Shown here piece by piece: positions 2,308 through 63,260 of a DNA stretch of 64,000 bases. The stretch is taken from assembly GCA_032622095.1 (NCBI GenBank), contig CP136067.1, forward strand, positions 55,593,899 through 55,657,898, in the 5' to 3' direction. A program made the position numbers and the translations under genes. This stretch comes from Siphonodentalium dalli (taxonomy: Eukaryota > Mollusca > Scaphopoda > Gadilida > Siphonodentaliidae). Numbering within the stretch: position 1 is the stretch's first letter; the number at the start of each line of letters is the position of its first letter. The notes below the pieces were generated by a model. That model searched no databases. It saw only the letters and a list, made by a program, of their open reading frames with translations, and was not told where the DNA came from.

Positions 2308-4291
2308 TACATTTAGCGAAAAAGCCACTTTGTAAATGTATTTAAATCGAAAAGTGTATCGTGACAAAAACAGCCCAAAATACCCAATAGCACCCTTGGC
2401 AAAAGTTAATAGGAACAATTTATCTTCATATTGAAACACGATGATGTATTAAGTCAATCCTGCGCGAGTCCAAATGCGCCCAAAACATTACGCGTTCGTC
2501 TTTCCAAACCCAATGACGTATCGATGGTGTTATGAGCTTGGTGTTAATAGCCGTTGCGCATTCACCGAGAAATAACTGCAACTAGCCACGTGGGCGCCGA
2601 CCAATCAGAATGCTGGATTTAGTAATGACAACACTTAGTATGTAAATATATATTGGTAATGAGATGTGGCAAAGAACTCGACAAAATGAACTGTCATTTT
2701 GAGAGAGAAATAACCACTTATGAATGAGGTCATCAGTAGCTTTGTTTGGTATGAATTTTCTTTGAAAAAACAAATGTACTTATAAATAATGAAGGTTTCA
2801 TTGTACGATATGTGCCGACACGTTAACTCTTTCTCTACTAAACGCTCACCGACGAGACGAGTAGTTACCCTAGGAAATGTTCAGATAGTAAGTTCAGCAA
2901 ACATTTCTTGAACTTATCATCTGAACATTCCCCAACAATGAATATGAATTCTACTCTTATATATTATTTGCTTTTATTACACGAACACCCCGCTGAAGGA
3001 ATAATAGACCGTGCCAATGTATAGTTTTATAACTGAACGGGAGAATTTGCGTGAAAACAGCCACAACATAATACTGACCCATATTTCAGACGGTGATTCA
3101 CGAACATCTTGAATGTAATCACGTGACATTGGTATTTTCATTGTGGGATTATCGATTGTGGGAAATAGTACCTGGCGCGTGCCGCTCAAATGACTTGAGC
3201 ACGATTTTTGACAGGGTTGGCTTGACCCTCACTGAGTACGGAGGATTTACTTGATGTGGACATGCACTTGATGCGATGGGGCCTACTAGCAACGATGTCT
3301 CTGTCAGTTTATTTGTAACCACGCTTTATCCAAAACTCCAATATTCGAATACACACACAACTTCGACTTCAAGTTATAGGATGACTAAAACATACCAGAC
3401 TTTGTCCATACCATATATATATTTATTTTTTTCAAATTCAAAGGTATGTCTGTAGCTCGTGTGCCCCATCGTCTCAAGTCAGCACAAATACATTTATGTA
3501 TATGCATGTCGCTATGACAGTATTCCTGTGTAAATGACGCGAGTGTATCAAATAAATAGATAGTCTGTATATATAGTAACGGGCATATCCACTCTGTTTT
3601 GGGTGGATGTGCCTTCAATGAATGCATTAATATTACATATACTATTATATAATTATGTACCTGTTTAAAATGTGTTTTTTTATGTATTTAAATTTGTATA
3701 TCTCACATACCATGTTTTTTGGTTTATTGAGATTAAAGAATTGAAAAAATGAATCCATTCGGTATAGAATGTGTTAACTGTGTGCAGCCCGTCCATTACC
3801 GCCCTTCATCACATATTACAGGGTTGTACGGGTGGTGTTGACACATCCCAGGTACTTAATCGATTTAATTTTAAAATATTGCTAATGGGTTAGGATAGAT
3901 ACCAAAGTAACGCAACCAACTATCGATCATTGACTGCACTCAAAATAGCGTCAACTTTTCACAGAAACTGTCGGATCTATAAGCTTATTTTAAAGCCCAG
4001 GCACTGGACTGACTGTGATTCATTGTCCAGCAAAGGTTGTGGTTTTAGCATAAATTAATTTAAGCCTCAGAAAATATGCTAGTCCGAGATTCGTAACTTA
4101 CCTGTTACATTCCTTCTTGGACGTTGAGTGTTTCACATATATTATCTTACAGGAAGCGACCTGCAACATGGATCCGATTATCTATACCTCAGGTTGCCAC
4201 CCAACCAGGAGTGTCTCTCTTGTCAACAAAGCTTGTGAGTTGGCTCACACACAGCTGAAGTGATACGTATTTTTACATAACAGCTGCAGTG
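2308..4291. other. Intergenic, no gene recognised
   Basis: AT-rich intergenic DNA upstream of the first receptor gene. A short hairpin lies at 2877-2928 (listed separately). Minus-strand frames at 2977-3189 and 3385-3627 show no motif. Just upstream of the receptor, TTATCTTACAG at about 4143-4153 resembles a 3' splice site and could mark a 5'-UTR exon, but this is speculative. Confidence 0.45.
2877..2928. repeat. 20-bp-arm hairpin, one member of a dispersed repeat
   Basis: ATGTTCAGATAGTAAGTTCA at 2877-2896 pairs with the sequence at 2909-2928, with two mismatches and a 12-base loop. The preceding GACGAGTAGTTACCCTAGG resembles GACGAGTAGTTCCATTAGG just before a degenerate version of the same hairpin at about 39254-39305. 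The two sites therefore look like copies of one small repeat. Confidence 0.6.
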
Positions 4292-5518
4292 ATGATGTTC
4301 TTCACACGTTCACATGTTTTATTATGCCTCATCATTTATGTGACTTCGAGTTCGGCATCAGACAAAACCATGGCTAAACTGCTGTATGATAACATAACAT
4401 CGAACTACTCACCGAATTTTCCTCCTGCGCGATTTGGAAATGAGACAATACGCGTCGATATAAAATTCAATCTGAGAGCAATCACCAAAGTGGACGAAAT
4501 TACTCAATCAATCTGGTCGGGTGTATTACTTGAAATAAGGTGGACTGACCCGCTACTTAAGTGGGATCCTCAATACTTCAACGGAATGCGAAGTATCAAA
4601 ATGCCGAGCAAGGACGTATGGAGACCGCCGTTTCAGCCGACGACTGTTTATGACGAATCAACACTGTTTTCAAGTGGCGATGCGCTCCCCGTTAACGTCA
4701 GCCATGACGGACGCATCTATTGGGCTTCTGGAGTGGCGTTGAAGAGCAATTGTGTAATCGATGTGACATTATTTCCGTTTGACAAACATGACTGTGAAAT
4801 TGTGATAACATTGTGGATGTACTCACAGAAAGAGGTTGCGCTAAACAACTTAACTATATCCGTGGACTATTTCAAATCCAATGGGGTGTGGAATCTGACC
4901 AATTCGAGTATTTCTAGCGACGCATGGTTCACTGGTGTTCAGTACATTAAGGTTTCAGTGACCGTTAAGAGGCTGTCGCAGTTCATGGCTGTTACATTGA
5001 TAGCGCCTATAATGCTACTAAACATACTGAATATTGCTGTTTTCATGATACCCTCGGATACAGGGGAGAAAATTTCCTTCGCCGTTACGTCCTGGCTGAC
5101 ATTCGCAGTATTTATGAGTTTCATATCAGGTTACCTGCCAGAAGGAGGTGTCAGTGTCTGCTACCTTTCGATGTATCTGTTGGTTATGTTGGTCCAAAGT
5201 TCGATTGTTGTCATAGTAACAATTTGGATCGTTTATGTCCATAACCTATCGGGAGATATTCCCGGGTATCTGAATGGATTGTTCTCTTGTTATACATGTA
5301 GAATTCGTCATAGAATAATTGCCCATAAAGGAGAAAATCCAGAAATGACATCGGAAAATAAGGACATTTCACACAAGAGGGATAACTCTACATGTGGTAT
5401 TCGTATTCACACTTGGAAGGAAGTCAGCTCAAAAATGGATATATCTTTTTTCATTGCAATTCTCGCGACTTCTATTTTTCTGAATATTATATTTAATCCG
5501 ATATTTGTGGCTGGTTGA
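4292..5518 (+). CDS. Cys-loop ligand-gated ion channel subunit (nicotinic receptor-like), copy 1
   Basis: Intronless gene for a 408-residue subunit of a pentameric neurotransmitter-gated channel in the plasma membrane. A hydrophobic signal peptide (about 8-23) precedes the ligand-binding domain. The Cys loop is C154-C168 with exactly 13 residues between and the signature FPFDKHDC. Loop D-like WTDPLLKWDP and loop A-like DVWRPPFQP blocks are present. M1 is about 230-253, GEK 258-260 leads into M2 (260-281, leucine at 9'), M3 is 289-316 and M4 is about 383-405. The glutamate at -1' and absence of a PAR motif predict cation selectivity. Loop C (about 206-219) lacks the vicinal Cys pair of ACh-binding alpha subunits. 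Two adjacent ATGs (4292, 4295) are possible; alignment with copies 2 and 3 favours 4295. It is clearly the most diverged of the three copies. Ligand unknown. Confidence 0.95.
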   Translation: MMFFTRSHVLLCLIIYVTSSSASDKTMAKLLYDNITSNYSPNFPPARFGNETIRVDIKFNLRAITKVDEITQSIWSGVLLEIRWTDPLLKWDPQYFNGMRSIKMPSKDVWRPPFQPTTVYDESTLFSSGDALPVNVSHDGRIYWASGVALKSNCVIDVTLFPFDKHDCEIVITLWMYSQKEVALNNLTISVDYFKSNGVWNLTNSSISSDAWFTGVQYIKVSVTVKRLSQFMAVTLIAPIMLLNILNIAVFMIPSDTGEKISFAVTSWLTFAVFMSFISGYLPEGGVSVCYLSMYLLVMLVQSSIVVIVTIWIVYVHNLSGDIPGYLNGLFSCYTCRIRHRIIAHKGENPEMTSENKDISHKRDNSTCGIRIHTWKEVSSKMDISFFIAILATSIFLNIIFNPIFVAG

Positions 5519-15323: not shown

Positions 15324-16460
15324 GATGTGAGCAACGACTCTGATGACAATGAGCAACCTTTCATTCTAAACATGAATATCGATACATTACATACCTTGCT
15401 TTGACTTGTAATATCGAAAACAGCTCACTACGTGTAAGCGACAAATGTCGGTTTTTTTTGCGCAAGAGTGCACACAGGACTTAAACCACCAGGAACTCCA
15501 CTTTTCTCGAGGAAAAATATGCATGTATATCAGTTCTTAAAGTCATTAGCTTCACTCCCGGTGGGCATATATTTGATGTCAGACAGAACTGTGCCCGATA
15601 TACCACAAGAAAGGTCATAAAAAACTAGAAAGAAAACCCCAATGTGGCATATTATTAGTGCGGTACTCGCCCTGTATTAAATTGTTGAAAACTGCGATCA
15701 GAGTAAGAAATCTTCTCAGACACTAACACATTTTCGGAGCGAATCAGCGCGCGGAGTCTCATGGAATTATATTCGGAGGAAATCGGAACCACCCGAATAA
15801 CGACGATCGGCTGGCACGCACGACTGGGAGAACAGCCAAAACAAAGGCCGGCATGTCGATAACGAAAGTAGATTGAACAAAAAGAGAAGAAACAAAAAAT
15901 AATAGGGACCTATCATAGTTTTTGCATTCAAGTTTTCTAAGTAAAATGTCGACAATTATTTGGCAACTAACAAAGTTTTCACACTCTGTATATATATTTA
16001 TATATATATATGGAATTTTTGCAAATTTAGGAGAGTATGAGTACGTACTCACAGTGTGCAAAAGACGATTGGCACACCTCCGAAATTATCCAGGTTCACC
16101 AATAATAAACAAATCTGGGAATTCTGCCTTCTAATCTAACGTCAACATATTTGGCCGAATACAAGGTGAAGTTATCTGCATGCGAATTATTGACTTCTGT
16201 AAATGTAAATTATAAGCAATATTTCAATAATATTTGACATCACAATAGACCAATCGTGCTGAGCTAGATCGATTGGTCTTCCTGACACTGTTGTAAGATA
16301 TTTCTTGAATATTGAAATTTTGTTTGCTTGAAGATTTGTTCAAATTTATGATGAATATACCAGCAAAAAATTATACATTGTCTTTCATTAGTTTCAAAAT
16401 TGTCTTTCATTAGTTTCAAAATGAATAAGAATAATTTGTTTACAAAAAAATGGTTGTAAC
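15324..16460. other. No gene recognised
   Basis: Contains a short hairpin (GACCAATCG at about 16249 with CGATTGGTC at about 16270) and a 22-bp direct duplication of ATTGTCTTTCATTAGTTTCAAA at about 16377-16420. The frames at 15759-16061 show no motif. Confidence 0.4.
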
Positions 16461-17280
16461 TTGAAAGAACAATTTAGAGTAGGCCTACTCCCTTTATCCA
16501 AGATTCATGCTGGCTGTGAAAGACCGATGGGATTATTTTAGCCCGATCGGTATATTATAGCCCGATCGGGCTATTATTGATTGATTGGTGGTTCACCCAG
16601 ACCTGTAGGATATGAGCACTATAGGATATAGATAAGGCGTTTTATGTATGGGAGGCCTATTTCACTTGAAAGAACAATTTATAGTAGGCCTACTCCCTTT
16701 ATCCAAGATTCAGGCTGGCTGTGAAAGACCGATCGGTCTATTTTAGCCCGATCTGTCTATTTTAGCCCGATCGGGCTATTATTGATTGATCGGTGGTTCA
16801 CACAGACCTGTAGGGTATGCGCGCTATGGTATATAAATAAGGCGTTTCATGTATGGGAGGCCTATTTCACTTGAAAGAACAATTTAGAGTAGGCCTACTC
16901 CCTTTATCCAAGATTCAGGCTGGCTGTGAAAGACCGATCGGTCTATTTTAGCCCGATCTGTCTATTTTAGCCCGATCGGGCTATTATTGATTGATCGGTG
17001 GTTCACCCAGACCTGTAGGGTATGCGCGCTATAGTATATAGATAAGGCGTTTCATGTATGGGAGGCCTATTTCACTTGAAAGAACAATTTAGAGTAGGCC
17101 TACTCCCTTTATCCAAGATTCAAGCTGGCTGTGAAAGAACGATCGGTCTATTTTAGCCTGATCGGTCTACTTTAGCCCGATCGGGCTGTTATTGATTGAT
17201 CGGTGGTTCACCCAGACCTGTAGGATATACGCGCTATAGCATATAGATACGGCATTTCATGTATGGGATACCCATTTCAC
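16461..17280. repeat. Four tandem copies of an exactly 205-bp satellite
   Basis: Copies begin at 16461, 16666, 16871 and 17076 with TTGAAAGAACAATTTA, and the array ends at 17280. The spacing is exactly 205 each time, so there are no net indels. Each unit includes AGTAGGCCTACT, the palindromes GACCGATCGGTC and AGCCCGATCGGGCT, and ends TGTATGGGAGGCCTATTTCAC (degenerate in the last copy). Divergence is by substitution only, highest in the outer copies. Confidence 0.9.
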
Positions 17281-18560: not shown

Positions 18561-19389
18561 TTCCATCCAATTTTAACTGTCAATGATTGAGTCCATCTTA
18601 TGGTATATTTATTTGGGCCTATATAAACTCAAAAATTGAAGAAAACATAATTCCATATGGATATCTATATCACTATCGCTGTCCCAAACAAATACGGTCT
18701 GTACTAGAATAGTGAATAGCAATATGGCACACATGTAGCATTGCACAGGTAATTAAACAGTTTGAAATACACATGTAAGACAACTCTTTCTGCACGAGAC
18801 TGTACCTGCTGTAGTTCGATCATAAAATCGGTCAACGATCTGCAACGATTACAAATTTCTATAAATAGTAACATTTTCAACTGTTACCGTTGTTCATTGC
18901 TAGATCATGACCACTTTGATTATAATTCTTTCATAACTCGGTCAATGTTCTTCCGTTGGTGATTTCAGGCAATAATTCCTTTTATATCCCTCCCATTCGA
19001 ATTGACTATACCGCTTGTTTTTCGTTTTATTAAGCTGATGTTACGCTATTCCAGCAAACGGCCTCCCTCCACGGAAGCTATTTTCTGAGAACGAAAGCCG
19101 ACTCAATCCCGACCAAGTCGGAAGTGTTCGGGTGTTTCCGCGACTGCACACGACAACTCGTTTGTGTATTTATTTCGCGTTTACAGTGGAATTATTCGTC
19201 CCGATTGAGGGAAAGTAAATAGTTAGTTACGTGGCCGTATAATTAGTACAAACTGATATCTGGTTAGGGCATTTCGTGTATGGGGGTTATTTTATTCAGT
19301 CTTTCCACAGAATAACGCAGGGAACTCAATTGTGAGGTTCAATTTACGTTTCACATCACTTTAATTTCTTCTCACGTGGATAAGGAAAG
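18561..19389. other. Repeat-derived flank, no gene recognised
   Basis: About 18590-18720 resembles the right half of the 587-bp MITE interior (GGCCTATATAAACTC against GCCCTATATAGACTC). GGGCATTTCGTGTATGGGGG at about 19268 recalls the end of the 205-bp satellite unit. No coding sequence is seen. Confidence 0.4.
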
Positions 19390-19799
19390 TAGTGTAGTGA
19401 CTTAGCGTTTTTTTTGGAACGGACTGGCCAAAAGTGCCATTTTTTTATATTTTGTCAAGTTATGTGTGCTCTTTCAGAAAGTGAACTAGAAACAGGTTTC
19501 TGCTCAATATTAACCCTTGTTTCCAGTATAAATCCAAGATGGCGGCCAAATTCAATCATTATTTCACCCTGACGTTCCAACTGGTATAAAATTTGAGGCG
19601 CATGCATAATAAAGGCATCATTCAACCTGACATTGTCATATTTTGAAGATAGTAGCAACACAGGCTGACCAAATTGGAAATTTATCACTTTTTGTACCAA
19701 AAACATGCAATTTTGTCATATAATCATTCTCGTTTCAATTATTTCGGAATAATAAACAGACAATTTCTCAAAATGTTTCAGTGTAGATCAAAGGTTAAG

Positions 19800-20280
19800 G
19801 TCTTAGCATTTTTGGACATGTATACTCTAATCAAAACATACAATATCTAGGACACATTCTTAACCGTATTTTAGAAATTTTTGATTATGTTACCCCTCAC
19901 CCCAAAAATCATGAAATATTGTTTTTGTGATAAGCATCCGATAGAACATGGATGAGAATCTATAAAGGACACTATTTGATCACATTTCTAAATACTGCAA
20001 TGTCAATTACATACACAATGACCAAAGTTGAAATATAACATCTTTTTCGACAAAAAATATGCAATTTTGTAAGAAAATCCTCGTCATTTAAAATATTTTG
20101 GTCCAATAAATGGTCATTTACTCATAGGATATTTGCGATAGTTCACAATGTTCGGTCTTATATGTTTTGGACATATATACTGAACACGATGAATACATTG
20201 TATGTGTTTAATATGCAACAACGTTTCAGAAAACTTCGTTTATGTTACCCCTCACCCCAAAAATCAAAAAATTTGACTTG
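19800..20280. repeat. Direct duplication of about 350 bp inside the left arm, mirrored in the right arm
   Basis: TTATGTTACCCCTCACCCCA occurs at about 19887 and 20240 in the left arm, each within a longer similar block (ACATGTATACT and ACATATATACT upstream). The right arm has the complementary pair at about 23354 and 23710. The duplication therefore pre-dates the inverted dimer. Confidence 0.7.
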
Positions 20281-20849
20281 TTGTAAGGATTCAATAAATC
20301 TTTTGTTAAATCTTATAAAGTGAGTTTGTCGATCGCAATTCGTCATATATTATAATGTAACAATCTCATTGTCAGTATACTGTTGAAATTAACAATATTG
20401 TATGCCTAATAACAATTTATTTGATCATTTCAAATATGTTCAACCAATAGAATGGCAATATGCAATAATATACAATATGCGGTCTTAAAAGTTTCGAAAA
20501 TGAACATCGAATATATATATACAACACATATAAGGGTATATACACGTTATGTTTTGGTGAAATAAAATAAAAATAAAAGAATCTATAATACCATTAATGG
20601 ATATATTTGACCCAATATCATTGACTTGTGTAATCTAGCATTCAAGAGGGGTGTATATATAGATATGCATTTCAGGTCACAACTTTAAATTGGTAATCAA
20701 TAATACACATAAAGATGGCCTATCTTTGTTTATACTGTGTTCTTAAATTCATGTTTGTTATGTTATATAACTATAATGTTCACAGACTGATAATACCAGC
20801 CGATAGATAGCAACTCATAGATTGTCATGTTACCGCTGCCTGTGTTTAT

Positions 20850-21468
20850 ACGTTGAACAAATATTTTAAGCACACAATTACATCTACATAACTCTGTGTA
20901 TGGTAAATCAGCGTTTGCACATTTGCATCTGTTACAAGTTTGTGATTTGCAACAACACTTAATGAGTTCTGAGCACACAGCTGCAGCTTGGCATGACAAG
21001 TGTACCACAATCCTACCTGGTAGGCAGCTCGTTTCATATGTCCCACACCACATATATATGACAGTAACACTTCTTAGTCTGAGTAGAAACTTCATTAGTG
21101 ACTGGGCGTAATCATTAAAAGTAGATACTATATCGCAGGTACCATCATATCCACAAGAACGCCTCCATCAAATATCTTGCACTGAACATTTTTAGGTGGG
21201 TCCGATATATCTCCAATTGCTTCCCGGATACATCCCAGCAAATCAGATTGTGTCCCCTTGAATTTATCTCCCATAGATAAGGCGGGGGAAATAGCCGACT
21301 CTCATGAGAGAAAAACACGTCTGGTTCGGGGAGTTCTAGCCATCTCGTTATTGTTGATGAACTCTCTGTTAAACCGATCAACCCTCCATTTCCTTTCAAT
21401 TTGATGTTCTCCTGTTCCTGCACTTGATCGTTTGGAATAGCGGAGAAGCGATTTCGGGTTTTTTGAAC
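20850..21468 (-). pseudogene. Left half-copy of an uncharacterised transposon-linked gene
   Basis: On the minus strand, a block with FSAIPNDQ, EQENIKLKGNGG and IGLTE (about 21468-21316) is followed, after unrelated sequence, by AAYQVGLWYT and then AAAVCSELIKCCC plus TCNRCKCANADLP (about 21060-20860). I recall this series (FSAIPxDQxxEQN, KGxGGxxGLTE and a Cys-rich tail) from unnamed multi-copy proteins in marine invertebrate genomes, but I cannot give a family name. Frameshifts and a deletion between the membrane-proximal and Cys-rich parts make it non-functional. Biochemical role unknown. Confidence 0.6.
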
Positions 21469-21610
21469 TGCCCAAATGTTGTTCGAACACACTATTACAA
21501 GAAATAAAATATTGGAAGTACGTGCAAGATATTTGATGGAGGCGTTCTTGTGCATATAAATGTGCCTGCGATAGGACCTACATGTACTTTTAATGATTAC
21601 ATAATCACCA

Positions 21611-22690
21611 ATGAAGTTTCTACTATACAAACTAAGAAGTGTTAATGTCATGTGTGTTGTATGGGATAGGTATTTTGAAAGCAGCACAAAAGGCAGCACT
21701 AATGAGAATCGTGGTATAGGTCTTGGACGAGAAGTTGGTGGCCAAACTAAGATTCCAAAAAAATGGAACGACTTCCTCCGTCATTCTGACAATAAGCTTG
21801 AACTTTTTGTATTCCTGACAAGTAATGCGTCAGAACATGATGATAAAGTGTTAAACATGACAGATTGTTCGTCAACTCTCAAAATAGCAAATTCTTCCTA
21901 GTAAATCTTGAGAAAATGTTGTCAGGAGGAAGCTGATATTAGAATTGTTCCGCACATTATCCATGCGCTTTCTTGTGGGCTGACGACCATCCGTCCTGGT
22001 AATGGTCATCGGTCTGTTTTCAAAGTTTACGGATGCTAACAGTGGTGGTGATACATGTGTTTCTATAGGAACAGGCAAAACTAAAACATTGTACCATGAC
22101 AACAGCACATTTTCCGCTCTGGGCGATGACAATTGTTATCACTACCCAATTTTCATTCGATATCTGATTTTGATACCACTTTGTTCTTCCATATAAAGGG
22201 CAGAAAAAGTTTCTGGATAGCATTGAAATATTATCCCGTTATCACAGATACATGTACATTTCTTCTATAGGCGAATCAACCTTTTATTCAACTAGATTCG
22301 TCCTCATATATTTTCAAAGAACTCGAACGTTTCATTACCATTAATTATAATAAAGGTTGTCAAAAGTTGCTGATAACGAGGCATATGAAGAGAATTCTCC
22401 AAAACTTATCGGTCAAAAGGGGCCATAATACAGCATATGAAATGAGCCATATACCAGGCAGGATTGTGGTACACTTGTTATGACATAACAATTCCAATAC
22501 ATGGCCCGCATGACTGGGAATGGACAGTTGAAGATCATGGATGTAAACCATTGTGGACTACATTACCAGAAGCTGCAGCTGTGTGTTCAGAACTCATCAA
22601 GTGTTGTTGCAAATCCCAAACTTGTAACAGGTGCAAATGTGCAATAGCTGATTTACCATGCACATAATTATGCAGTTGTAATTGTGATAT
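21611..22690 (+). pseudogene. Right half-copy of the same gene, with Cys-rich C-terminus
   Basis: Plus-strand motifs in order: IPKKWNDFLRHSDNKLELF (about 21755-21812), EEADIR (21926-21943), IGTGKTKTLYHD and SALGDDNC (about 22060-22135), AIYQAGLWYTC (about 22450-22482), then PLWTTLPEAAAVCSELIKC and a tail of paired cysteines (TCNRCKCA) ending about 22668. The Glu-Glu-Ala-Asp-x-Arg then GTGK order resembles proteins I recall with EEADTR, DTDVV and TGCD motifs. Those acidic motifs faintly suggest a FEN/PIN-type nuclease, which is inference. Several frameshifts are present. The C-terminal part lies in the right inverted arm, and its mirror copy is at 20850-21100. Confidence 0.65.
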
Positions 22691-24588
22691 TAAGAATGCC
22701 TAAAATATTTGTTCAATGTATCAACATGGTCACCGGTATGGTCACCGGTGATTATAACATGACAATCTATGAGTTGCTATATATCCGCTGGTATGATCAG
22801 ACTGTGCACATTATAGTTATACAGGTACAACAAAACAAACGTGAATTTAAGAACAGAGTATAAACAAAGATAGACCATCTTTATGTTATGTGTATTATTG
22901 ATAGACAAATTAAAGTTGTGATCTGAACTACATGTCTATATATACCCCCTCTTGTATGCTACAATTGTAGATTATATAAGTCAACACCTTCAAATATTTA
23001 TGGTATAATAGACTTTTAGAATTTTATTCTATTTCACAAGACATGACATGTATACACCTTTAAATGTGTTGTATTCGACAGTCATTTTCGAAACTTTCAA
23101 GGCCGCATGTGGTATACGATCTTGGGAAATGTTTGAGAAATTGCCCATATATTGGTTGAAAATATTTGAAATGATGGTTATTTTACCATAAAATATAGCT
23201 GTTATTAGGCATACACTTGTAAATTTAAACTGTATACTGTCAATGAGATTGTTACATAATAATATATGACTAATTGTCATCGACAAACTCACTTTATAAG
23301 ATTTAACCAAAGATTTATTGAATCTTTACAACCAAGTCATATTTTCGTGATTTTTGGGGTGAGGGGTAACATAAACCAAATTTTCTGAAACGTTGTTACA
23401 TATTAACCCCAGAAAATGTATTCATTATTTTCAGTATATATGTCCCAAACATTTAAGACCAAACATTTTGAACTATCGCAAATATCCTATGTGTACATGA
23501 CCATTTATTGGACCAAAATATTTGAAATGACGAGGATTTTCTTACCAAATTGCATATTTTAGTCGAAAAGGTTGTACATTTCAACTTTGGTCATTGTGTG
23601 TGTAATTTCAATTACAGTATTTAGAAATGTGATCGAATAGTGTCCTTTATATATTCTCATCCATGTTCTATCGGATGTTTATCACAAAAACAAAATTTCA
23701 TGATTTTTGGGGTGAGGGGTAACATAATCCAAAATGTCTAAAATATGGTTACGAATTTGTCCTAGATGTTGTATATTTTGTTTGCAGTATACATTTTTGA
23801 AATTTTTAAGATCTTAACCTTTGATCTGCACTGAAACAGTTTTGAGAAATTGTCTGTTTATTATTCCGAAATAATTGAAACGAGAATGATTTTATGACAA
23901 AATTTCATGCTTTTGGTCCAAAAAGTGATAATTTTCAAATTTGGTAAGCCTGGATTGCTAATATCTTCAAAATATGACAATGCCGGATGGAATGACGCCT
24001 TTATTATGCATGTGCCTTAAATTGTATACCAGTTGGAACGTCATGGTGAAATAATGATTGAATTTGGACGCCATAATCGATTTATACTGGAAACAAGGGT
24101 TAATATTGATCAGAAACCTGTTTCTAGTTCACTTTCTGAAAGAGCACACCTAACTTGACATAATATAAAAAAATGGCACTTTTGGCCAGTCCTTTCCAAT
24201 ATGACAAAATTTTGTCGCTAAGTCACTACACTAAAGTAATCATGGCACAGTTCTTCCTGTTTTCCAGGATGCATTCACGGAAGCTACAACATAGAAACAC
24301 GGAGTTGATTCATACACGTTAGTCTATAATTATATAGGGCTGACGTGATCACGCTGAGTACCGAGACAGTGACATCCATTAATTTCAATTGTTGTAATAA
24401 GACAAGAGCATACACTGTTAAAAGCATTAAATTATATTGCGGTCTATAACAAAATATTAAAACACGTAGGCAGACTCAATGTGATGGATCCATTGTATAA
24501 AACGAATATAAAACCACGTTAATGGCCTGCAAATATGGCATACGATTACCAGAACCGACTTGTTGATTTAGTTCTGGAAAATCACAGG

Positions 24589-24612: not shown

Positions 24613-24645
24613 ATGGCTTGGTATAACTATGGTTGCAAATTTTAA
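24613..24645 (+). promoter_or_regulatory. Conserved 10-codon upstream ORF, receptor copy 2
   Basis: Following CCAACACGC, an ATG opens a 10-residue frame (MAWYNYGCKF) ending in TAA. Copy 3 has an upstream frame of the same length at 32408-32440 (MVWFYSGCCM), with M, W, G and C in register. It would lie in the 5' leader if transcription starts at the TATA candidate. Possible translational control; unproven. Confidence 0.4.
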
Positions 24646-24701
24646 AGACTTTCCTTTCCATAAACATTCTGCGACGTGTTTTGTGTGTTATAACGACGGT
24701 C

Positions 24702-25907
24702 ATGTTCCCAAAGCGTGCACTTGTTTCCGTTTTCTTCCTCTTTAGTCTGACTTGCATCTTTGCATCGGAAAGTATGTTCAAGCAGCTATATGACAACATA
24801 ACAACGGGCTATTCACCAAGTCTTCTACCTGTGCGATTCGAGAATGAAACGATAAGCGTCGATGTAATTTTCGATCTGGTGACAGTTTCGAAATTGGACG
24901 ACATTACTCAATCAATGTGGGTGGGTTTTTTTCTCGAAGCAAAGTGGACCGATCTGCTGCTCACATGGGACCCCCAGTACTTCAGCGGCATCAAAAGTAT
25001 CAAAATCCCAGGCAAAGATGTGTGGAAACCGCGCTTTCAACCGGTGAATATTTATGAATCATCCACAGACTTTTCCAATAGTTTTCTTCCTGTGAACGTT
25101 AGCAACGACGGCAGCATGTTCATGTTTACTGTGGGGACTTTGCAGAGCAAATGTAATATCGACGTGACATCATTTCCGTTTGATAAACACGATTGTAGCC
25201 TGATCTTTTCTCAATGGATGTACACACCAGAAGAGGTTACCATAAGAAATGTTAGTATAACATTGGACTATTACAATGCGGATGGGGTGTGGAGCCTTAC
25301 TAACTGGAGTATTGGTAGGGACACGTGGTACACTGGTGTTCAGTATATGAATATTTCAGTCACCGCCGAAAGGCTGTCGCAGTTTATGGCGGTTACATTA
25401 ATAGCACCCGTAATGCTACTTAACATTTTAAATGTTGGTGTTTTCATGATACCGCCGGATTCTGGGGAGAAAATTTCTTTCGCCGTTACAGCATGGCTTA
25501 CATTCGCAGTATTCATGAGTTTTATATCTGGTTATCTGCCAGAAGGTGGCAAAAACGTCTGCTATCTTTCGCTGTATCTGCTGGTTATGCTGGTGCAAAG
25601 TTCGGTTGTTGTCATGGCAACAATTATGACCGTTTACGTCCACAACCGTACCGGAGATATTCCCAGTCGTTTAAATGGATTAATGTCTTCTTATAGGATG
25701 TGCCGAAAGAAGATTAACCCCACGGAAGATAGTTTAGAACCTGAAAAGGACGACAATGACACCCAGCGAGATAACTCTACTCACAGTACCCACATACACA
25801 CATGGAAGGATGTCAGTTCAAATTTGGACACGGTGTTCTTCCTGGTTATTTTCGCGACATCTATTTTGCTGAATGTCAGATTTAATCCAATGTGTGTATC
25901 TCGTTGA
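24702..25907 (+). CDS. Cys-loop ligand-gated ion channel subunit (nicotinic receptor-like), copy 2
   Basis: Intronless, 401 residues from the first in-frame ATG, which aligns with copy 3; the open frame extends upstream only through non-ATG codons. A signal peptide is followed at about residue 20 by ASESMFKQLYDNIT. Cys loop C151-C165 (13 between, FPFDKHDC). Binding-domain blocks WTDLLLTWDP, DVWKPRFQP and QWMYTPEEV correspond to loops D, A and B. M1 about 227-250, GEK 255-257, M2 257-278, M3 286-313, a short M3-M4 loop, M4 about 376-393. A glutamate at -1' predicts cation permeability. Loop C contains no vicinal cysteines, so it is non-alpha-like. From YTGVQYMN through M2 its protein is identical to copy 3, with about ten nucleotide differences, all synonymous. 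An inverted-dimer transposon sits directly upstream. Ligand unknown. Confidence 0.95.
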   Translation: MFPKRALVSVFFLFSLTCIFASESMFKQLYDNITTGYSPSLLPVRFENETISVDVIFDLVTVSKLDDITQSMWVGFFLEAKWTDLLLTWDPQYFSGIKSIKIPGKDVWKPRFQPVNIYESSTDFSNSFLPVNVSNDGSMFMFTVGTLQSKCNIDVTSFPFDKHDCSLIFSQWMYTPEEVTIRNVSITLDYYNADGVWSLTNWSIGRDTWYTGVQYMNISVTAERLSQFMAVTLIAPVMLLNILNVGVFMIPPDSGEKISFAVTAWLTFAVFMSFISGYLPEGGKNVCYLSLYLLVMLVQSSVVVMATIMTVYVHNRTGDIPSRLNGLMSSYRMCRKKINPTEDSLEPEKDDNDTQRDNSTHSTHIHTWKDVSSNLDTVFFLVIFATSILLNVRFNPMCVSR

Positions 25908-28793: not shown

Positions 28794-29085
28794 TGTATGA
28801 TTATTTTTCGAAGAATAACCTTTTGTACAAATACCAATAACTCCATAACTACGTATTTTATGAATTAGTCCTTTATGCCAAACCCGCTCAAACGCTTTAG
28901 AGATATCACAGAATACACCTATGGATAACATCGACTCACTCCTAGTTTTGGTAACAGAGTCCCCTTGGTACAGTGGTAGGGCTAGAGTTTTATGGCAGGG
29001 CGGGTAGAATTGTGAATGCGTGAGTATAAGATAGTACGTGGGGTGTTAATTATTTGTACACTTGGTGGGGTGTATGATTATTTTG
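28794..29085. other. Patchwork insertion assembled from pieces of the same LINE
   Basis: Successive blocks: 28794-28838 is the reverse complement of 29867-29911 (45 bp); 28839-28954 copies 29694-29809 (116 bp, direct); 28955-28968 source not found; 28969-28998 copies 30083-30112 (30 bp); 28997-29054 copies 27763-27820 (58 bp) with a 2-base overlap; 29055-29071 source not found. TGTATGATTATTTT stands at both edges (28794-28807, 29072-29085). It splits ORF2. Confidence 0.85.
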
Positions 29086-29086
29086 T

Positions 29087-30041
29087 CACAGTCCCAGACA
29101 CAACTGCCATATTCTAGTATGGGCAATAAATGTGTTTTGAATAATGTGTCGAGGGTCTTTCGTGACAACATATACTTTAATTTTCGGAGTTGTGAAAGCA
29201 CAGTGCAAGCATTTTTGTAGATGTGTTCTATGGCAAGGTCCCACTGAAGATCGGATTGCAGTACGATTCCTAGATGACAGTGATCTTCAACTATTTCGAG
29301 TTTGTTGGAACTGAATATGAGGTCTGCACTGCGTGGGAATGTTGATTGGTGGCCCTGAAATATCATTGCTTTCGTTTTTGATGAGTTAAGGGAAACTAGC
29401 CATTTGCTAGTCCAACTATCAAGTGATGTAAGGTCGTTATTTATATGAACCACCAGATCTTCATAAGACGGTAGTGAATAGAATATACAGGTGTCATCTG
29501 CAAATAGGCGAACGTTTGACTTCAGATTGTCTCCTATGTCATTTATGAATATTGAGAACAAAAAGGGACCAAGAAGAGACCCCTGAGGAACCCCAGAGGC
29601 GGGTTTTAGGGGGTGTGAATATTCCGAACCAACAAGCACTCTTTGAGATCTATTGCTGATATAATCAATAATCCAGAAGAGTAATTTACCGTCAACTCCA
29701 TAACTACGTATTTTATGAATTAGTCCTTTATGCCAAACCCGCTCAAACGCTTTAGAGATATCACAGAATACACCTATGGATAACATCGACTCACTCCTAG
29801 TTTTGGTAAGGTGGTGAATTATTTCTAGTAATTGATGAGTTGTGCTGTGTCCAGGGCGAAATCCGGATTGGTATTTGTACAAAAGGTTATTCTTCGAAAA
29901 ATAATCATACATTTTTTGAAAAACGATCTTTTCAAGAACTTTGCTCACACATGAAAGAAGTGATATTGGCCTGTAATTACCTGGATCTGTTTTCACGCCT
30001 TTCTTGAAGATTGGTATTACGCTAGCAACTTGCCACTGCAT
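29087..30041 (-). pseudogene. LINE reverse transcriptase domain
   Basis: Continues the polymerase in a new frame from WQVASVIPIFKKG. Motifs in order: NYRPISLLS (fingers), FCDISKAFERVWH (motif A with catalytic Asp), SGVPQGSLLGPFLF (motif B), LFADD (motif C, about residues 179-183 counted from 30041) and KTKAMIF. The thumb ends at LEYGSCVWD near 29087, where the patchwork insertion begins. All visible catalytic residues are intact, so the damage is recent or the copy is only lightly decayed. Confidence 0.85.
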
Positions 30042-31581
30042 TTGGGAATATACCTGTTTCTAAGGACTGTTTGAAAAGAATGTACAGTGGTAGGGCTAGA
30101 GTTTTATGGCAGCACTTCAAAATTTTATTGCTTATCCAATCTGGACCAGTGGCTTTGTTAGCGTCCAATTCCTTAAGAATTTTTTCTACATCATCCTGTG
30201 TAATAGTAATTGAATTTAGCGTCTTGGCTGTTCTTTTCGGAAAATCTGGAATAGACTGACCAGAGTCGTTTATTGCACTATTATTGATAAATATTTCATT
30301 GAGAATATTTGCTTTGTCCACATCATCGTAGGCAAAATTTAGGCCAAATTGCAGTGGCGGTATCGTTAGCGATTTATTCTTCTCGCGGAGAAATTCATTT
30401 GTCATTTTCCAAAAAGATTTTGGATCATGTACGGTATTTAGGTTATTTTGAATTTCATCTAGGTATTGTTTTTTCGCATATTTGTTCATGTTATTTACCG
30501 AGTTTCTGTGTTTTTTATATTTGGACCAATGATTCGGCTGATTGCTTTTAATTGCTTTCCTTCTGCATCTGTCTCGTCGTCTAATTTCGAGTCTGATGCG
30601 ACTGTCAAACCACGGTTTGTCGTTTGGTCTTATGGTAGCTATATGGTTTGGTACACACTTTTCAACTGTACTATTAATACTATTTTCAATAATTGATACT
30701 TTAGATTCTATTGAATACGCATCGTTTTTGTTCAAGACATTTGTCCAGTCAACTGCCGAGAAAATCCGATTCATTTCATCGAAATCAGCTAGTTTGTAAT
30801 TCCAAATTCGGCGTTTTATAGCAGGTGAAATGTCATAATCGCATGATATTGTGATATATGTGGCTATGTGGTCAGAGACTCCGGGTTCGATTGTGTCAGC
30901 GTCGAGTACGTTTATAGTTTTAGTTACAATGATGGGATCTAGAAGTGAGCTGCGAGTGGGGGAAATGCGCGTCGGCTTATCAATTACATGTTTCATGCTG
31001 AAGAAATCTATGGTAGCTTGTAAAGTGCAGCTAGGCTGTAGAAGGTCGCAGTTTAGGTCACCCACGATGATAACTGATTTATTAATATATAACGCAGAAG
31101 CTATGCTGGATTCAAGGTTGGTCCAAAATGACGAGTCTGTGAAATTTTCAGAGCGATATATAATACATAGTAAAAATGAAGAGCGTTTCTTTTTTACTTC
31201 GAACCACATCACAGAGTCACCTTTCTCGAGTTGGTGACACCGGTTAAACAAAATATTATCGGAGAAGTAAACACACAGGCCTCCACCAGAGCTGTCCCTG
31301 TCTAGACGAATTAGTCCCACATATCTATCCAATTTCAACGTGGAAGAGTTAAATGTCGGGTCAAGGTGTGTTTCAGTAAAACATAAAATATCATAGTTAT
31401 CCAATATATGAGTGATTTTTCCAATCTTGTTTCGGATGCTCCTTATATTATAGTGGAAAATTGATAATTGATTTGTAGTTGACGTTGCGTATAGTATTAA
31501 TAAGACAACATATATGCGGTTAATATATAGATAAATTTTACGTATATGCGTAAACCAGCTGATGGCAGATAGATGAGCCAT
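30022..31581 (-). pseudogene. LINE endonuclease domain and start of reverse transcriptase
   Basis: 519-codon frame beginning at ATG 31581. Endonuclease motifs of the exonuclease-endonuclease-phosphatase fold: NIRS (residues 45-48), FTETHL (68-73, catalytic Glu), GDLN (174-177, catalytic Asp and Asn) and SDH (236-238, catalytic His). About 330-400 is the Arg/Lys-rich linker, and ANKATGPDWISNKILK (about 480) begins the polymerase. The frame then runs into a stop just after GIFPNA because of one extra base; the reading continues in another frame at 30041. The enzyme would nick target DNA for target-primed reverse transcription. Confidence 0.85.
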
Positions 31582-31804
31582 TGCCCCGGTAGCTTAAGTG
31601 CCGTTGTATGGTCCATGAAGCGGGAGGGTAACAAAGGTCTGGAGTTCATAAAGCTGCGCACGCGTTGTGATTCGCTTGACCGTCTCATCCCAAAGTCTAG
31701 CGAATATGGACTGAGATATATGAACGATTCGCACAAAGCTAAATTCTGTAAAAACATGCCAGAACATATATATTGTAAAATAAATTTAGTTAAACAATGA
31801 CCGA

Positions 31805-32440: not shown

Positions 32441-32512
32441 TTGTCGCGAGACATTTTTTTTTTAAAGCGTCTGATGGATACACGACGTATTTCACGCGTT
32501 ATAACGCGGGTC

Positions 32513-33721
32513 ATGTTCACAAAATGTACATTTGTTTCTCTGTTCTTCCTTGTTGGTCTGACTTGCGTCGTCGCATCCGAAATAAGTATGTTCAAGCAGC
32601 TATATGACAACATAACAGCGAATTATTCACCTAGTCTTCTACCTGTGCGATTCGAGAATGATACGATATACGTCGACGTGGTGCTCAGCCTGGTGACAGT
32701 CACAAAATTGGACGACATTACTCAATCAATGTGGTCAGGTATAAATATCGAAGCAAAGTGGACTGATCCGCTTCTCACGTGGGATCCCCAATTTTTCCGC
32801 GGCATCAAAAGCATCAAAATGCCAGGCAAAGACGTGTGGAAACCGTATTTTCAACCAATGAATATTTATGAAGCATCAGCAGACTTTTCCAACAGTTTCC
32901 TACCTGTGAACGTTAGCAACGATGGCGGCGTCTACATGGTTACTTCTGGGACTTTGCAGAGCAAATGCAATATCGACGTGACATCATTTCCGTTTGATAA
33001 ACACGATTGCAGCCTTATAATTTCTCAATGGATGTACACACCAGAAGAGGTTACCATAAGAAATGTTACAATAACAAGGGACTATTACGATGCGGATGGG
33101 GTGTGGAACCTTACTAACTGGAGTATTTCAATGGACAAGTGGTACACTGGTGTTCAGTATATGAATATTTCAGTGACCGCCGAGAGACTGTCGCAGTTTA
33201 TGGCGGTTACATTAATAGCGCCGGTAATGCTACTTAACATTCTGAATGTTGGTGTTTTCATGATACCGCCGGATTCTGGGGAGAAAATTTCCTTCGCCGT
33301 TACAGCATGGCTTACGTTCGCAGTATTCATGAGTTTTATATCTGGTTATCTGCCCGAAGGTGGTAGAAAAGTCTGCTATCTTTCGTTGTATCTGCTGGTT
33401 ATGCTGGTACAACGTTCGGTTGTTGTCATGGCAACAATTGTAACGGTATATGTCCACAACCTAACCGGAGATATTCCCGGTCGTTTAAACGGATTAATGT
33501 TTGTTTCTATGCTGGGCCGAAAGACGATTGCCCCCAAGAAAGATAGTTTAGAACCTGAAAATAACGAAAATGCAACCCAGGGAGATAAGTCTACTCGCAG
33601 TACCCGTATCCACACATGGAAGGATGTCAGTTCAAAGATGGACACGGCGTTCTTCTTGGTTATTTTCGCGACATCTATATTGCTGAATGTCAGATTTAAT
33701 CCAATGTGTGTATCTGGTTGA
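32513..33721 (+). CDS. Cys-loop ligand-gated ion channel subunit (nicotinic receptor-like), copy 3
   Basis: Intronless, 402 residues from the ATG that aligns with copy 2; another in-frame ATG at 32474 would add 13 residues but has no counterpart in copy 2. Signal peptide, then MFKQLYDNIT. Cys loop C152-C166 with 13 residues between. Loops D (WTDPLLTWDP), A (DVWKPYFQP) and B (QWMYTPEEV) are recognisable. GEK at 256-258 precedes M2; M3 and M4 follow with a short cytoplasmic loop. Like the other copies it lacks the loop C vicinal Cys pair and has the cation-type -1' Glu. Differences from copy 2 are concentrated in the first beta strands and the M3-M4 loop. AATAAA at about 33765 could be the polyadenylation signal. 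A homo- or hetero-pentamer partner is not evident. Confidence 0.95.
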   Translation: MFTKCTFVSLFFLVGLTCVVASEISMFKQLYDNITANYSPSLLPVRFENDTIYVDVVLSLVTVTKLDDITQSMWSGINIEAKWTDPLLTWDPQFFRGIKSIKMPGKDVWKPYFQPMNIYEASADFSNSFLPVNVSNDGGVYMVTSGTLQSKCNIDVTSFPFDKHDCSLIISQWMYTPEEVTIRNVTITRDYYDADGVWNLTNWSISMDKWYTGVQYMNISVTAERLSQFMAVTLIAPVMLLNILNVGVFMIPPDSGEKISFAVTAWLTFAVFMSFISGYLPEGGRKVCYLSLYLLVMLVQRSVVVMATIVTVYVHNLTGDIPGRLNGLMFVSMLGRKTIAPKKDSLEPENNENATQGDKSTRSTRIHTWKDVSSKMDTAFFLVIFATSILLNVRFNPMCVSG

Positions 33722-55965: not shown

Positions 55966-56805
55966 CTGAATCAAGAAAAGGGCGTATCAAACTCAATTCT
56001 AGCAGTGCTATGCTGCTAAACTGCTAAGGAATGAAAATATTAAAAAAGAGAGTTTCAAAATGAATTCTAGCAGTGCTCTGCTGCTAAACTGGTAAGGAAT
56101 GAAAATATTAAAAAAGAGAGTTTCAAACTCAATTCTAGCAGTGCTATGCTGCTAAACTGCTAAGGAATGAAAATATTAAAAAAGAGAGTTTCAAACTCAA
56201 TTCTAGCAGTGCTCTGCAGCTAAACTGCTAAGGAATGAACATATTGAAAAAGAGAGTTTCAAACTCAATTCTAGCAGTGCTATGCTGCTAAACTGCTAAG
56301 GAATGAAAATATTAAAAAAGAGAGTTTCAAACTCAATTCTAGCAGTGCTCTGCAGCTAAACTGCTAAGGAATGAACATATTGAAAAAGAGAGTCTCAAAC
56401 GGAATTCTAGCGGTGCTATGCTGCTAAACTGCTAAGCAATGAAAATATTAAAAAAAGAGTTTCAAACTCAATTCTAGCGGTGCTATGCTGCTAAACTGCT
56501 AAGCAATGAAAATATGAAAAAAAGAGTTTCAAACTCAATTCTAGCGGTGCTATGCTGCTAAACTGCTAAGGAATGAAAATAGTAAAAAAAAAAGAAGAGT
56601 TTCAAACTAAATTCTAGCAGTGCTATGCTGCTAAACTGCTAAGGAATGAAAATAGTAAAAAAGAGAGTTTCAAACTAAATTCTAGCGGTGCTATGCTGCT
56701 AAACTGCTAAGGAATGAAAATAGTAAAAAAGAGAGTTTCAAACTGAATTCTGGCGGTGCTATGCTGCTAAACTGCTAACAAATGAACATATTAAAAAAGA
56801 GAGTT
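55966..56805. repeat. Twelve-copy 68-bp satellite with dimeric higher-order structure
   Basis: Unit: AATTCTAGCAGTGCTATG then CTGCTAAACTGCTAAGGAAT and an A-rich part with AAGAGAGTTTCAAACT. Starts are spaced 68 bases in the first half (for example 56000, 56068, 56136, 56204, 56272). Copies 4 and 6 share CTCTGCAGC and GAACATATTGAAA, while 3 and 5 share CTATGCTGC. This indicates a 136-bp dimer repeat there. Later copies share AGCGGTGCT and AATAGTAAAA. Confidence 0.9.
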
Positions 56806-57770
56806 TCCCGTAACTACTGCGTTGTCATGATAGGAACATTTATTTGTTTTCTAACATAAACATATATATACAACATAGTCAATAAAAAAAAATTAAAAAA
56901 AATTATATTTACATCACATTTTTCAACCACTCACAATGTATCTAGATAATTAACACATAACAGTGCGAGAAATAGACACAAACAAAACCTCAATGCATCA
57001 TCATGCAAAATGCAAGATTCCATGAAGAACGGACACTCATCCCTCATAATAAAATTGTGGTACGTTCCATATTCCAATTATTATAAGAACACATGTGATA
57101 ACATCCACTACTGTGGCACACCTTGAATAAAAATACATCTGACATTTCTTTACGGGTGATGTCGAGATTCTTCCGTTTAAGTTTTAACCATGAATATATT
57201 AGTCATTTGACATCCAAAAATAGAATTTCATATAATAGGTTCCATTCTGCGCTACCTAAACGTTCGATAGTTCAAGATATTATCCATTTAAATTAAATTT
57301 ACGTGTGATTTGTGTATTCCATTTAAAAAATATTGTTTCAGCATAAATATATTGATGGCAAATACTACGTGTATTTGTTATACACACAGATGGCTAGCAA
57401 TTAATGTTCAATTTTTAATGCAGTTCAGGGATATACATTATTATTGATCCTCCGATACTTTTTTCTAAACAATATAACCATTCAACATTCTAATGGATGT
57501 CAACAAATAATAAACAAAGTAATATGCACCTCACCCATGGTGCATGCATAATTGCTAGTCTGGTGTCATCTCCAATTCTGGTCCTAAATAACGGCTACCT
57601 GTATTATTAGAAATATGCTAATCAATTTGCATATTAAAATGGTTAAGCACTGGATCAATGTTACGATGCAACAAACTTCTAACATGCACATGCTTTACGT
57701 GTATGGTTTTCTGCTAGAAAATCATGCGTTATATAATAACGTCTGGTCACGTAATTTCAGCTAAGATTAC
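56806..57770. other. No gene recognised
   Basis: AT-rich, with no motif or strong repeat. Confidence 0.4.
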
Positions 57771-61019: not shown

Positions 61020-63260
61020 CAGTAATATCAACCCATCATATTTAAGCATCTCAGTTGGAATGCAACTGGTATTTTCAGTCCTTCTTCTTATCTAGTTAAT
61101 TTGCTGTCGGATAATTCAGTCGACATTTGTGGCGTCAGTGAACACTGACTGTGCAGTGCGAATGCAAGTTTCATGGACACCCTGTCTCCCAGCTATCGCG
61201 CGCACACAGTCTGCGATCAAAGACAACGACAGCCAAATCAGAGAGGGAGAAGCGCTGGTGGGGTCAGCATCTTATGGCACGAACTTCACGATTCTAAAAT
61301 TTCAGTCATCGACCTTGAAGATGACCGCATAGCAGCTATACAGATCGAAATTACTCAAAATTCCTTCATGTACATATTTCAAGTATACTTACCTTCATCA
61401 AACTCTCCAGTCGAACTATACGACGCATATATTAAGTCATTGTACGATATCTTAGAATTTTTTCATGCCTCTAGGTACTCCGATCCTGATGGGTGACTTC
61501 AATGGGACGCTATCGAGAAGTGACGCTCGTAATAAACGATTTCAAGAATTGCTGATGATTCTTCAGTCGGGTCCAATATCGACCATTTTCTTATCCGGTC
61601 ATGCGATTTACACCATGTAATCAATGCTCAAATATTTGACGACGCTTCCCTTAATGTTACCAATCATATGCCTATCGAAATGTCTATATAATTTGATCTC
61701 AACTGTTCTCCGACAGCCAGCTTCAGTCAGGCTCCAGAGAAATTCAAATGGAAGCTTTTAAATAACAACACCGATGTTCTTGAAAATTACCAGTCGAAAC
61801 TGGAGTCGTACCTTCCTCAGTTTCAAATTACCGATACATTCTTGTTGGATCAATATTACAACGATATAGTAAACGCGCTTCTGTGTTCATCCAGGGAACT
61901 CATTCCCATATAAATATTTCAAAGGCACATGAAGCCTTTCTGGGACGATGAAATTCGTGCCCTGCATAAAGTGATGGACGAATTACGAGTCCTCTGGATT
62001 CAAGATGGCCGACCAAGAGGCATCTTATTTCCTTCCTATGCAAACTATAAAGATGCAAAACGTAACTTCCGTTATGTTCACCGTAGAAAATCCAGTAAAC
62101 CGCTTACTGAAAAATAACAGAAAAAATCACAACCATTCTCTCCCGTTCTCCAAACAACGACACCATTCTCAGAGGTAGAACGGAGATAGTCAGCGCGTGG
62201 GCTGAATACTATAAATCAATCTCCACTGAGTCGACTGATCCATTATATAAACTCAACAGACTAGATAGGAACAAAGCACATGGATACGACTCAGTTTCCT
62301 ATGAGCACATAATTTTCGGTAGTGAAGCGTTGCTCAATTGCCTCGCACATTTATTCTCACATATGTTTGAATACTCACATGTACCTCTTGCAGCGAAACG
62401 GGGCGTCATGGTGTCTCTTCACAAGGGTGGACGAAAACCTAAAGACTGTTTTGACAGCTATAGAGCAATTAGCATATTACCTGCCATTTACAAGCTATTT
62501 GAGATAGTGATATCACTTCGATTGGAAACGTACATGTTGTCTTCAATCGCCGTCCATCCGTTACAACACGGTTTTGAAAAAGGAATCAGTTGCACCATGA
62601 CATCCTGTTTTGTGCAAGAATGTATTAGTTGCGCCAGGGAACAACACACTAAGCTTTACTCATATATATCGAACGTGCGTAAAGCTTTCGATTGTGTATG
62701 GACCAATGGCCTCTTGTACAAATTGTTTCACAGAGGATTACAAGGCAAAACATGGCTCATCATACGAGAATTATTATCTGGCATAAAATGTTGTATCCGC
62801 AGCGACGGAACATATTCCGACTGGTTCTCATTGTCGCAAGAAACCAGACATGGATCCATATTATCACATCTGTGGTACAAAATATACGCAGACGACCTCC
62901 TCCATATGATTGAGAAGTCAAAATTAGGCCTTCGTATTCCAAGCCGATGATATGATGCTTCTTTCGTTATCTCGCCCAGGTCTTATTGGCCTATATGAGT
63001 TATGCCTTGAATACAGTTATAAATGGCGGTTCAGCTATAATTCTTCCAAAACCGTCATAATGGTTTTCAATGAAACCAAACAAGAAGCCGAAATATGTGC
63101 AAGATCGTGGCCATTTGTATCATCCTTTCTCAGAGAAGTTGACTCATATACTCACCTGGGAATTCTGCTGTCCAAATCACATTTCAATAATAAATTTGTC
63201 GATGCCATATGTAAAAAATTAAGGGGGGCATATTTCGGCCTCTCCGATGTATATGCATAC
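61020..63260 (+). pseudogene. Decayed LINE ORF2: endonuclease and reverse transcriptase
   Basis: Endonuclease start LSWNATGIFSPSSYLVNLL then SVDICGVSEH (about 61045-61145), broken by a Trp-to-stop change; GGVSILWHELH; MGDFNGTLSR (about 61489-61517, catalytic Asp/Asn) and NHMPIEMS (about 61664). Polymerase: NKAHGYDSVSYEHI (about 62270), GVMVSLHKGGRKPKDCFDSY with AISILPAIYKLFE (about 62401-62500), SYISNVRKAFDCVW (62660-62700, motif A), a degraded motif B, IYADDLL (62884-62904, motif C) and FSYNSSKTVIMVF (about 63030). Numerous stops and frameshifts. It is a different lineage from the 27.8-31.6 kb LINE. It occupies the place where a fourth receptor gene would be expected. Confidence 0.8.

Follow-up and report, generated by a model that had tools for sequence, protein, structure and literature searches.

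The window analysed here, a stretch of 64,000 nucleotides from the scaphopod Siphonodentalium dalli (assembly GCA_032622095.1, contig CP136067.1, positions 55,593,899 to 55,657,898 of the forward strand), contains an element of 4,844 bp with long inverted arms and a fragmented gene at its centre (Table 1). Both of its ends coincide exactly with the limits of a finding in an initial annotation of this DNA, and each is flanked by AAG, a 3-bp target-site duplication. The sequence TAGTGTAGTGACTTAGCG reads inward at either end, and when the window was searched for the terminal 17-mer with up to three mismatches, it occurred at the two ends and nowhere else (0.07 expected by chance). The arms pair in inverted orientation at 83.5% identity over 1,689 aligned columns, with ungapped blocks at 83-93%. 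As the initial annotation had it, these are not plain terminal repeats: both carry the same Cys-rich protein C-terminus, reading outward at 22446-22667 on the plus strand and at 21040-20874 on the minus strand, plus a 3' flank with an internal duplication, which we recognise as a subterminal repeat spaced at 353-356 bp (starts at 19671 and 20025 in the left arm and at 23132, 23488 and 23841 in the right arm). The centre likewise proved to hold different gene parts on opposite strands (FSAIP..GLTE on the minus strand, KIFDGG..EEAD..C-terminus on the plus strand), and the ordered motif set was located in full (FSAIPNDQ, KGNGGLIGLTE, EEADIR, GTGK, WTTLPEA and CNRCKC).

Table 1. Features of the element and their positions in the window
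Feature	Position	Strand	Evidence
Target-site duplication AAG, left copy	19387..19389	.	22/29 loci with exact 3 bp
Whole non-autonomous element, 4,844 bp	19390..24233	.	Ends and order repeated in genomic copies
Left tip, TAGTGTAGTGACTTAGCG then T run, 5'-type	19390..19407	+	Asymmetry in 29/29 copies, also in L049
Left arm: inverted C-terminus and 3' flank, outward-reading	19390..20989	-	Arm alignment
Left-arm subterminal repeat, two copies spaced ~354 bp (19671-19770, 20025-20124)	19671..20124	.	
Left-arm gene piece: HMKRAAYQVGLW and Cys-rich tail	20874..21040	-	P0125 residues 1410-1421, 1455-1492
KIFDGG.. piece, inverted partner of 21522-21573	21131..21182	-	90% pair
End of DDE-like region, WAVQKTRNRFSAIPNDQ..GLTES	21289..21474	-	P0125 residues 836-898, 49% identity
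KIFDGG.. piece, start of nuclease domain	21522..21573	+	Inverted pair and P0125 comparison
Decayed XPG/FEN1-like nuclease domain, stops and frameshifts	21617..22354	+	P0125 residues 1122-1376, E 6e-55
C-terminal region: WTTLPEA motif and Cys-rich CXC tail	22413..22688	+	P0125 residues 1403-1493
Right arm: C-terminus and 3' flank, native orientation	22570..24233	+	Arm alignment
Right-arm subterminal repeat, three copies spaced ~354 bp	23132..23903	.	
Right tip, TAGTGTAGTGACTTAGCG then ACAAAATTTT, 3'-type	24216..24233	-	Tip comparison
Target-site duplication AAG, right copy	24234..24236	.	As left copy

Read against P0125, the protein of an intact relative, the minus strand runs from the end of the DDE-like region into the start of the nuclease and then jumps to the C-terminus, and the plus strand encodes the nuclease domain, of the XPG fold, followed by the C-terminus; residues 1-835 of P0125 had no counterpart in the element at E 0.01. 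Stops at 21899 and 21902 are common to all 20 genomic copies compared (see below), and death of the gene thus predates the spread of the family. Six more stops in the same frame recur in 18 to 20 of these copies and are less telling, some of them lying past frame shifts. Searches of general databases gave little for this DNA: none of six window pieces matched Pfam, Rfam yielded nothing in the window at the gathering threshold, and none of 58 pattern matches in a scan of viral contigs was confirmed. A homologue search with the minus-strand open reading frame alone returned 73 candidates, none significant, probably because the length rule shuts out full-length relatives. When the PDB was searched by sequence with profile A3, there were two matches up to E 10, the better of which (E 0.12) was an unrelated GTPase.

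Intact relatives exist in the same genome. With the homologue P0107 as query, 35 matches were obtained (33 of 4,769 candidates scored), seven of which are full length, without stop or intron, and the two with ends read have terminal repeats and 3-bp duplications; they are therefore not the single-copy, intron-bearing host genes without flanking repeats that the initial annotation had set against its transposon reading. One of them, L049 (959-8415), measures 7,457 bp with TTC on either side and has a single 1,509-codon frame (1,494 residues from the chosen first methionine); the other is 7,660 bp by its ends and flanked by CTG. The long protein of such relatives comprises a putative DDE-type transposase region, in which homologues keep D..D..HEQ motifs, a FEN1/XPG-fold nuclease and a CXC tail. 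The terminal repeats of L049 extend over only ~57-67 bp, so long arms are not its native state. After the common core, its tips continue with TTTT on the left and ACAAAA on the right, the same asymmetry as in the window family. Its DNA resembles the window element weakly (of the seven stretches that align, six are 58-73% identical and the other, 26 bp long, 85%), and the outer 76 bp of the right arm match the 3' end of an intact relative at 72.7%. L049 also has direct repeats of ~210 bp in its 5' leader (1738-2156); the repeats of the window family sit in the 3' flank.

In its own 2.23-Gb genome, the element terminus occurs 200 times forward and 211 times in reverse (reversed control, 1 and 1), which, if termini pair up, corresponds to some 200 copies. 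Together with the window, 28 two-ended loci taken from the first 100 listed terminus places make 29 loci. An exact 3-bp duplication flanks 22 of these, the window included, as compared with a mean of 2.3 and a maximum of 8 in 2000 random deals of the right flanks. Since L009/L010 and L021/L022 have common flanks and look like duplicates of single insertions, the independent count is 20 of 27. Within the 29 loci, there was no exact duplication of 5 to 8 bp, and per-position matches for 9 and 10 bp stayed close to background. We also considered a 5-bp AAAGT duplication, to which the window taken by itself pointed, and rejected it: the required A before and T after the 3 bp were seen, by eye, in the window alone among the 22 exact loci. 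Every one of the 29 copies has one tip of each type, TAGTGTAG.. being followed by a T run at one end and by ACAAAA at the other. By blastn, 26 of 28 loci are laid out as in the window, in some cases with sequence gained or lost; the remaining two, L016 and L024, are divergent and rearranged, yet still head to head. The rearranged unit has thus been amplified whole as a non-autonomous family through many independent insertions, and is not private to this locus. Inverted repeats are prone to mis-assembly, and the two duplicated-looking pairs might feed such a suspicion; however, copies in the same order stand at many places, each with its own flanks and 3-bp duplications, and an assembly artefact or private local rearrangement is hardly conceivable. 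Outside the duplication and divergence counts are L001-L008 (3,015-bp cut-outs) and L037-L048, a set made up of two long pairs in overlapping pieces, two pairs with both termini on the same strand and six single ends; L053 has no recognisable element end. L011, L023 and L033 represent a 5.15-5.18-kb variant whose extra near-centre DNA repeats part of the gene region. In L041 and L042 (G000:C1:270578051 and 270868066), ~290 kb from each other, same-strand termini lie 4,573 bp apart, perhaps a tandem or duplicated arrangement.

To date the arms relative to the copies, we used 20 of the 29 loci, window included (all but L010, L016, L022, L024, L025, L026, L034, L035 and L036). Gaps not counted, these copies share a mean identity of 97.0% (95.9-99.4) and are 97.7-98.8% identical to their majority sequence, whereas the two arms of that majority sequence are only 86.6% identical to each other; divergence of the arms therefore preceded the spread of the family. 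A tree built from the 20 arms of 10 copies places the amplified family's left arms in one group and its right arms in another (100 each), and the split of all right from all left arms holds with L016 and L024 included (bootstrap 82), which argues, with moderate support, for a single origin predating the split of the L016 and L024 subfamilies. The left arm of L024 has a long branch, its homology not extending along the whole length. The groupings L014-L030-L029 and L018-L027 recur on both arm sides, as expected if the unit moves whole, and L032 shifts position between the sides with low support.

A second family repeats the layout. The L049 terminus occurs 94 and 90 times in the genome (control, 0 and 0), and eight pairs among 100 listed places are 4.7-5.1 kb apart. 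Three copies are known from their ends (C1:163638052, 901 bases per side; C1:195032916, 261; C2:74946602, 211), and all three have inverted-repeat arms (identities of 82.8%, 86.5% and 87.9% over 839, 237 and 199 columns, respectively). In each, both arms resemble the 3' end of L049 (79-86%) and the outer 55-56 bp of one arm match the L049 5' tip at 94.5-94.6%; it is only for the second family that comparison with L049 shows a 5'-like tip joined to 3' subterminal DNA. Two of the three have an exact 3-bp duplication (AAA and ATA), the third having TAC and TGT. Since the ends of C1:163638052, the one copy compared, are alike to the DNA of the window element over only 24-26 bp, at the tips, the mirrored layout likely arose separately in two families with related proteins within one genome. 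Less favoured is that the two families may share an older common structure, with conversion between arms. Tentatively, and with considerable doubt, we raise the idea that mirroring of the 3' end is a favoured outcome in this transposon group, which might have produced two derivatives of ~4.7-4.8 kb, each with a 5' tip, a 3' tip and two 3' subterminal regions; their wide spread would then be owed either to the doubled 3' subterminal region being the better transposase substrate or to the inverted gene fragment serving as a mobile silencer of its own family. The terminus of the second family also occurs three times, 29 bp apart, as a small tandem array of tips at G000:C3:181448394-181448469.

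We consider it quite probable that the non-autonomous element derives from an Academ-like (AcademX) cut-and-paste transposon that lost its 5' interior to an inverted copy of its 3' end but kept a 5' tip of ~55 bp. A break or excision of an element would have been followed by repair, in which the copying end may have primed anew on the short terminal repeat at the opposite, wrong end. The 3' end would then have been copied backwards into the gene, ousting the 5' interior up to the ~55-bp tip and leaving both tip types together with two 3' subterminal regions. With its gene dead, the product would have to move in trans; it has been amplified as a unit. The alternative that two family members recombined or inserted head to head, making a two-source composite, draws on the 86.6% likeness of the arms next to ~97% between copies, as if they came from two source elements. 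A composite of complete 3' ends would, however, have two 3'-type tips, which none of the 29 copies has, and a 5' tip that seems to be fused onto 3' subterminal DNA is seen in the second family. If two copies exchanged strands at their terminal repeats, the outcome would nonetheless look no different; we regard such a composite as doubtful. The 'back-to-back inverted dimer of an uncharacterised transposon gene' of the initial annotation accordingly holds as to gene and orientation, but 'dimer' is loose, as the 5'-type tip makes this look like a single element with an inverted 3' end in place of its 5' interior.

The nuclease of AcademX is of the XPG type, as is that of the element's protein. 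Terminal inverted repeats, another AcademX trait, are present as well (~57-67 bp in L049 and tips at both ends of the window element). In the part of its description quoted here (PMC10045372), AcademX is a nuclease-encoding DDD/E transposon with target duplications of 3 or 4 bp, and the 9 or 10 bp of AcademH are tied to a helicase instead; in our data, 3 bp were found at 22 of 29 loci and beside the intact relatives, with no sign of 9 or 10 bp. No helicase family appeared in Pfam scans of P0125 and seven homologues; L049 has further, smaller frames, of at most 261 codons, outside those scans. Unlike AcademX as described, the copy in the window has a dead gene and a 3' end repeated in inverted orientation. 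One could suppose an undescribed superfamily that merely resembles AcademX, given that no Pfam family covers the protein well and that membership is built on described features; yet a nuclease and short duplications are the very features given for AcademX (PMC10045372), and Academ is reported to be plentiful in bivalves, with 100 curated consensuses averaging 5,565 bp (PMC10294476), so that we think this unlikely. The 'poorly described transposon family' of the initial annotation is apt insofar as Pfam is nearly silent, but a plausible published home exists. Our literature search found no head-to-head Academ derivative; the primary Academ description lay beyond its reach, and absence from print is not claimed.

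Several observations weigh against this reading. Seven of the 29 loci lack an exact 3-bp duplication, and the intact relatives found include no close parent of the window family from which its breakpoints could be read directly; the repair step is deduced from its product rather than seen. The two tips being inverted repeats of each other, the 5'-type arm of the second family can be aligned with the L049 3' end as well, starting at its first base (79-82%), and the fused 5' tip appears as such by its higher identity and T-type continuation. The DDE region is proposed on the grounds of motif conservation, of secondary structure as predicted, and of weak matches to DUF6589 (eight of 120 listed homologues; one of seven scanned above the cut-off, P0107 at 27.8 versus 27 bits), and P0125 itself had no Pfam match. 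Fold searches, which covered only the nuclease part, matched nucleases; no DDE-region match appeared, which given that coverage is no evidence against one. Finally, AcademX is a plausible home judged by its described traits, not by comparison with an Academ reference sequence.

Among known systems, Mu killer of maize, a MuDR derivative, is a single rearranged locus of a superfamily other than that of the window element, whereas here the rearranged unit is itself mobile and many-copied. It is nevertheless the closest in anatomy, and the traits given in the quoted part of its description, a partial inverted duplication of the transposase gene (mudrA) and two copies of one terminal region (PMC3440606), are both present here. 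By analogy, read-through transcripts of our element might form a long hairpin and feed small RNAs against the active family; with arms only 83.5% identical in the window copy and L049 DNA too diverged for a good silencing target, such a role seems very unlikely. Drosophila Galileo/Foldback elements have terminal repeats lengthened by inverted internal sequence and tandem repeats in their arms, and the passages cited propose that one terminal repeat is repaired from the other, the copied tract overrunning and lengthening the repeat (PMC3573991), a model that is close to the mechanism proposed above. Galileo belongs to the P superfamily, however, and usually recruits the region just inside the repeat; the stretch recruited in the window family extends into coding sequence and takes the place of the 5' interior. 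Pfam scans of P0125 and its homologues brought up no P-element profile, direct comparison with a P-type transposase not having been made. KolobokP, abundant in bivalves, is a DDD/E element that also has an added nuclease and unusual ends, but its nuclease is of the His-Me finger type and its long terminal repeats run in direct orientation (PMC9587614), whereas the window arms are inverted.

These observations suggest how a transposon with short repeats can acquire long ones and become foldback-like in a single step, and that a single genome has seen this happen more than once. Living relatives make it testable how long terminal repeats originate and whether selection acts on the architecture. 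Besides, a widespread, unnamed group of animal proteins gains a structural assignment, a FEN1/EXO1-type nuclease with conserved acidic positions.

Elsewhere in the window, three intronless open reading frames of 419-426 amino acids (4259-5518, 24627-25907 and 32441-33721) lie on one strand and encode neurotransmitter-gated channel domains; the element end lies ~400 bp upstream of the second. Frames resembling those of long interspersed nuclear elements occupy 29046-31593 and 62111-62950; the minus strand encodes domains of a reverse transcriptase and an endonuclease, and the plus strand another stretch of reverse transcriptase. There are also two tandem arrays, a 205-bp unit repeated four times at 16459-17280, which contains shorter 19-bp CCGATCGG.. 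repeats, and a 68-bp unit in ~12 copies at 55976-56807.
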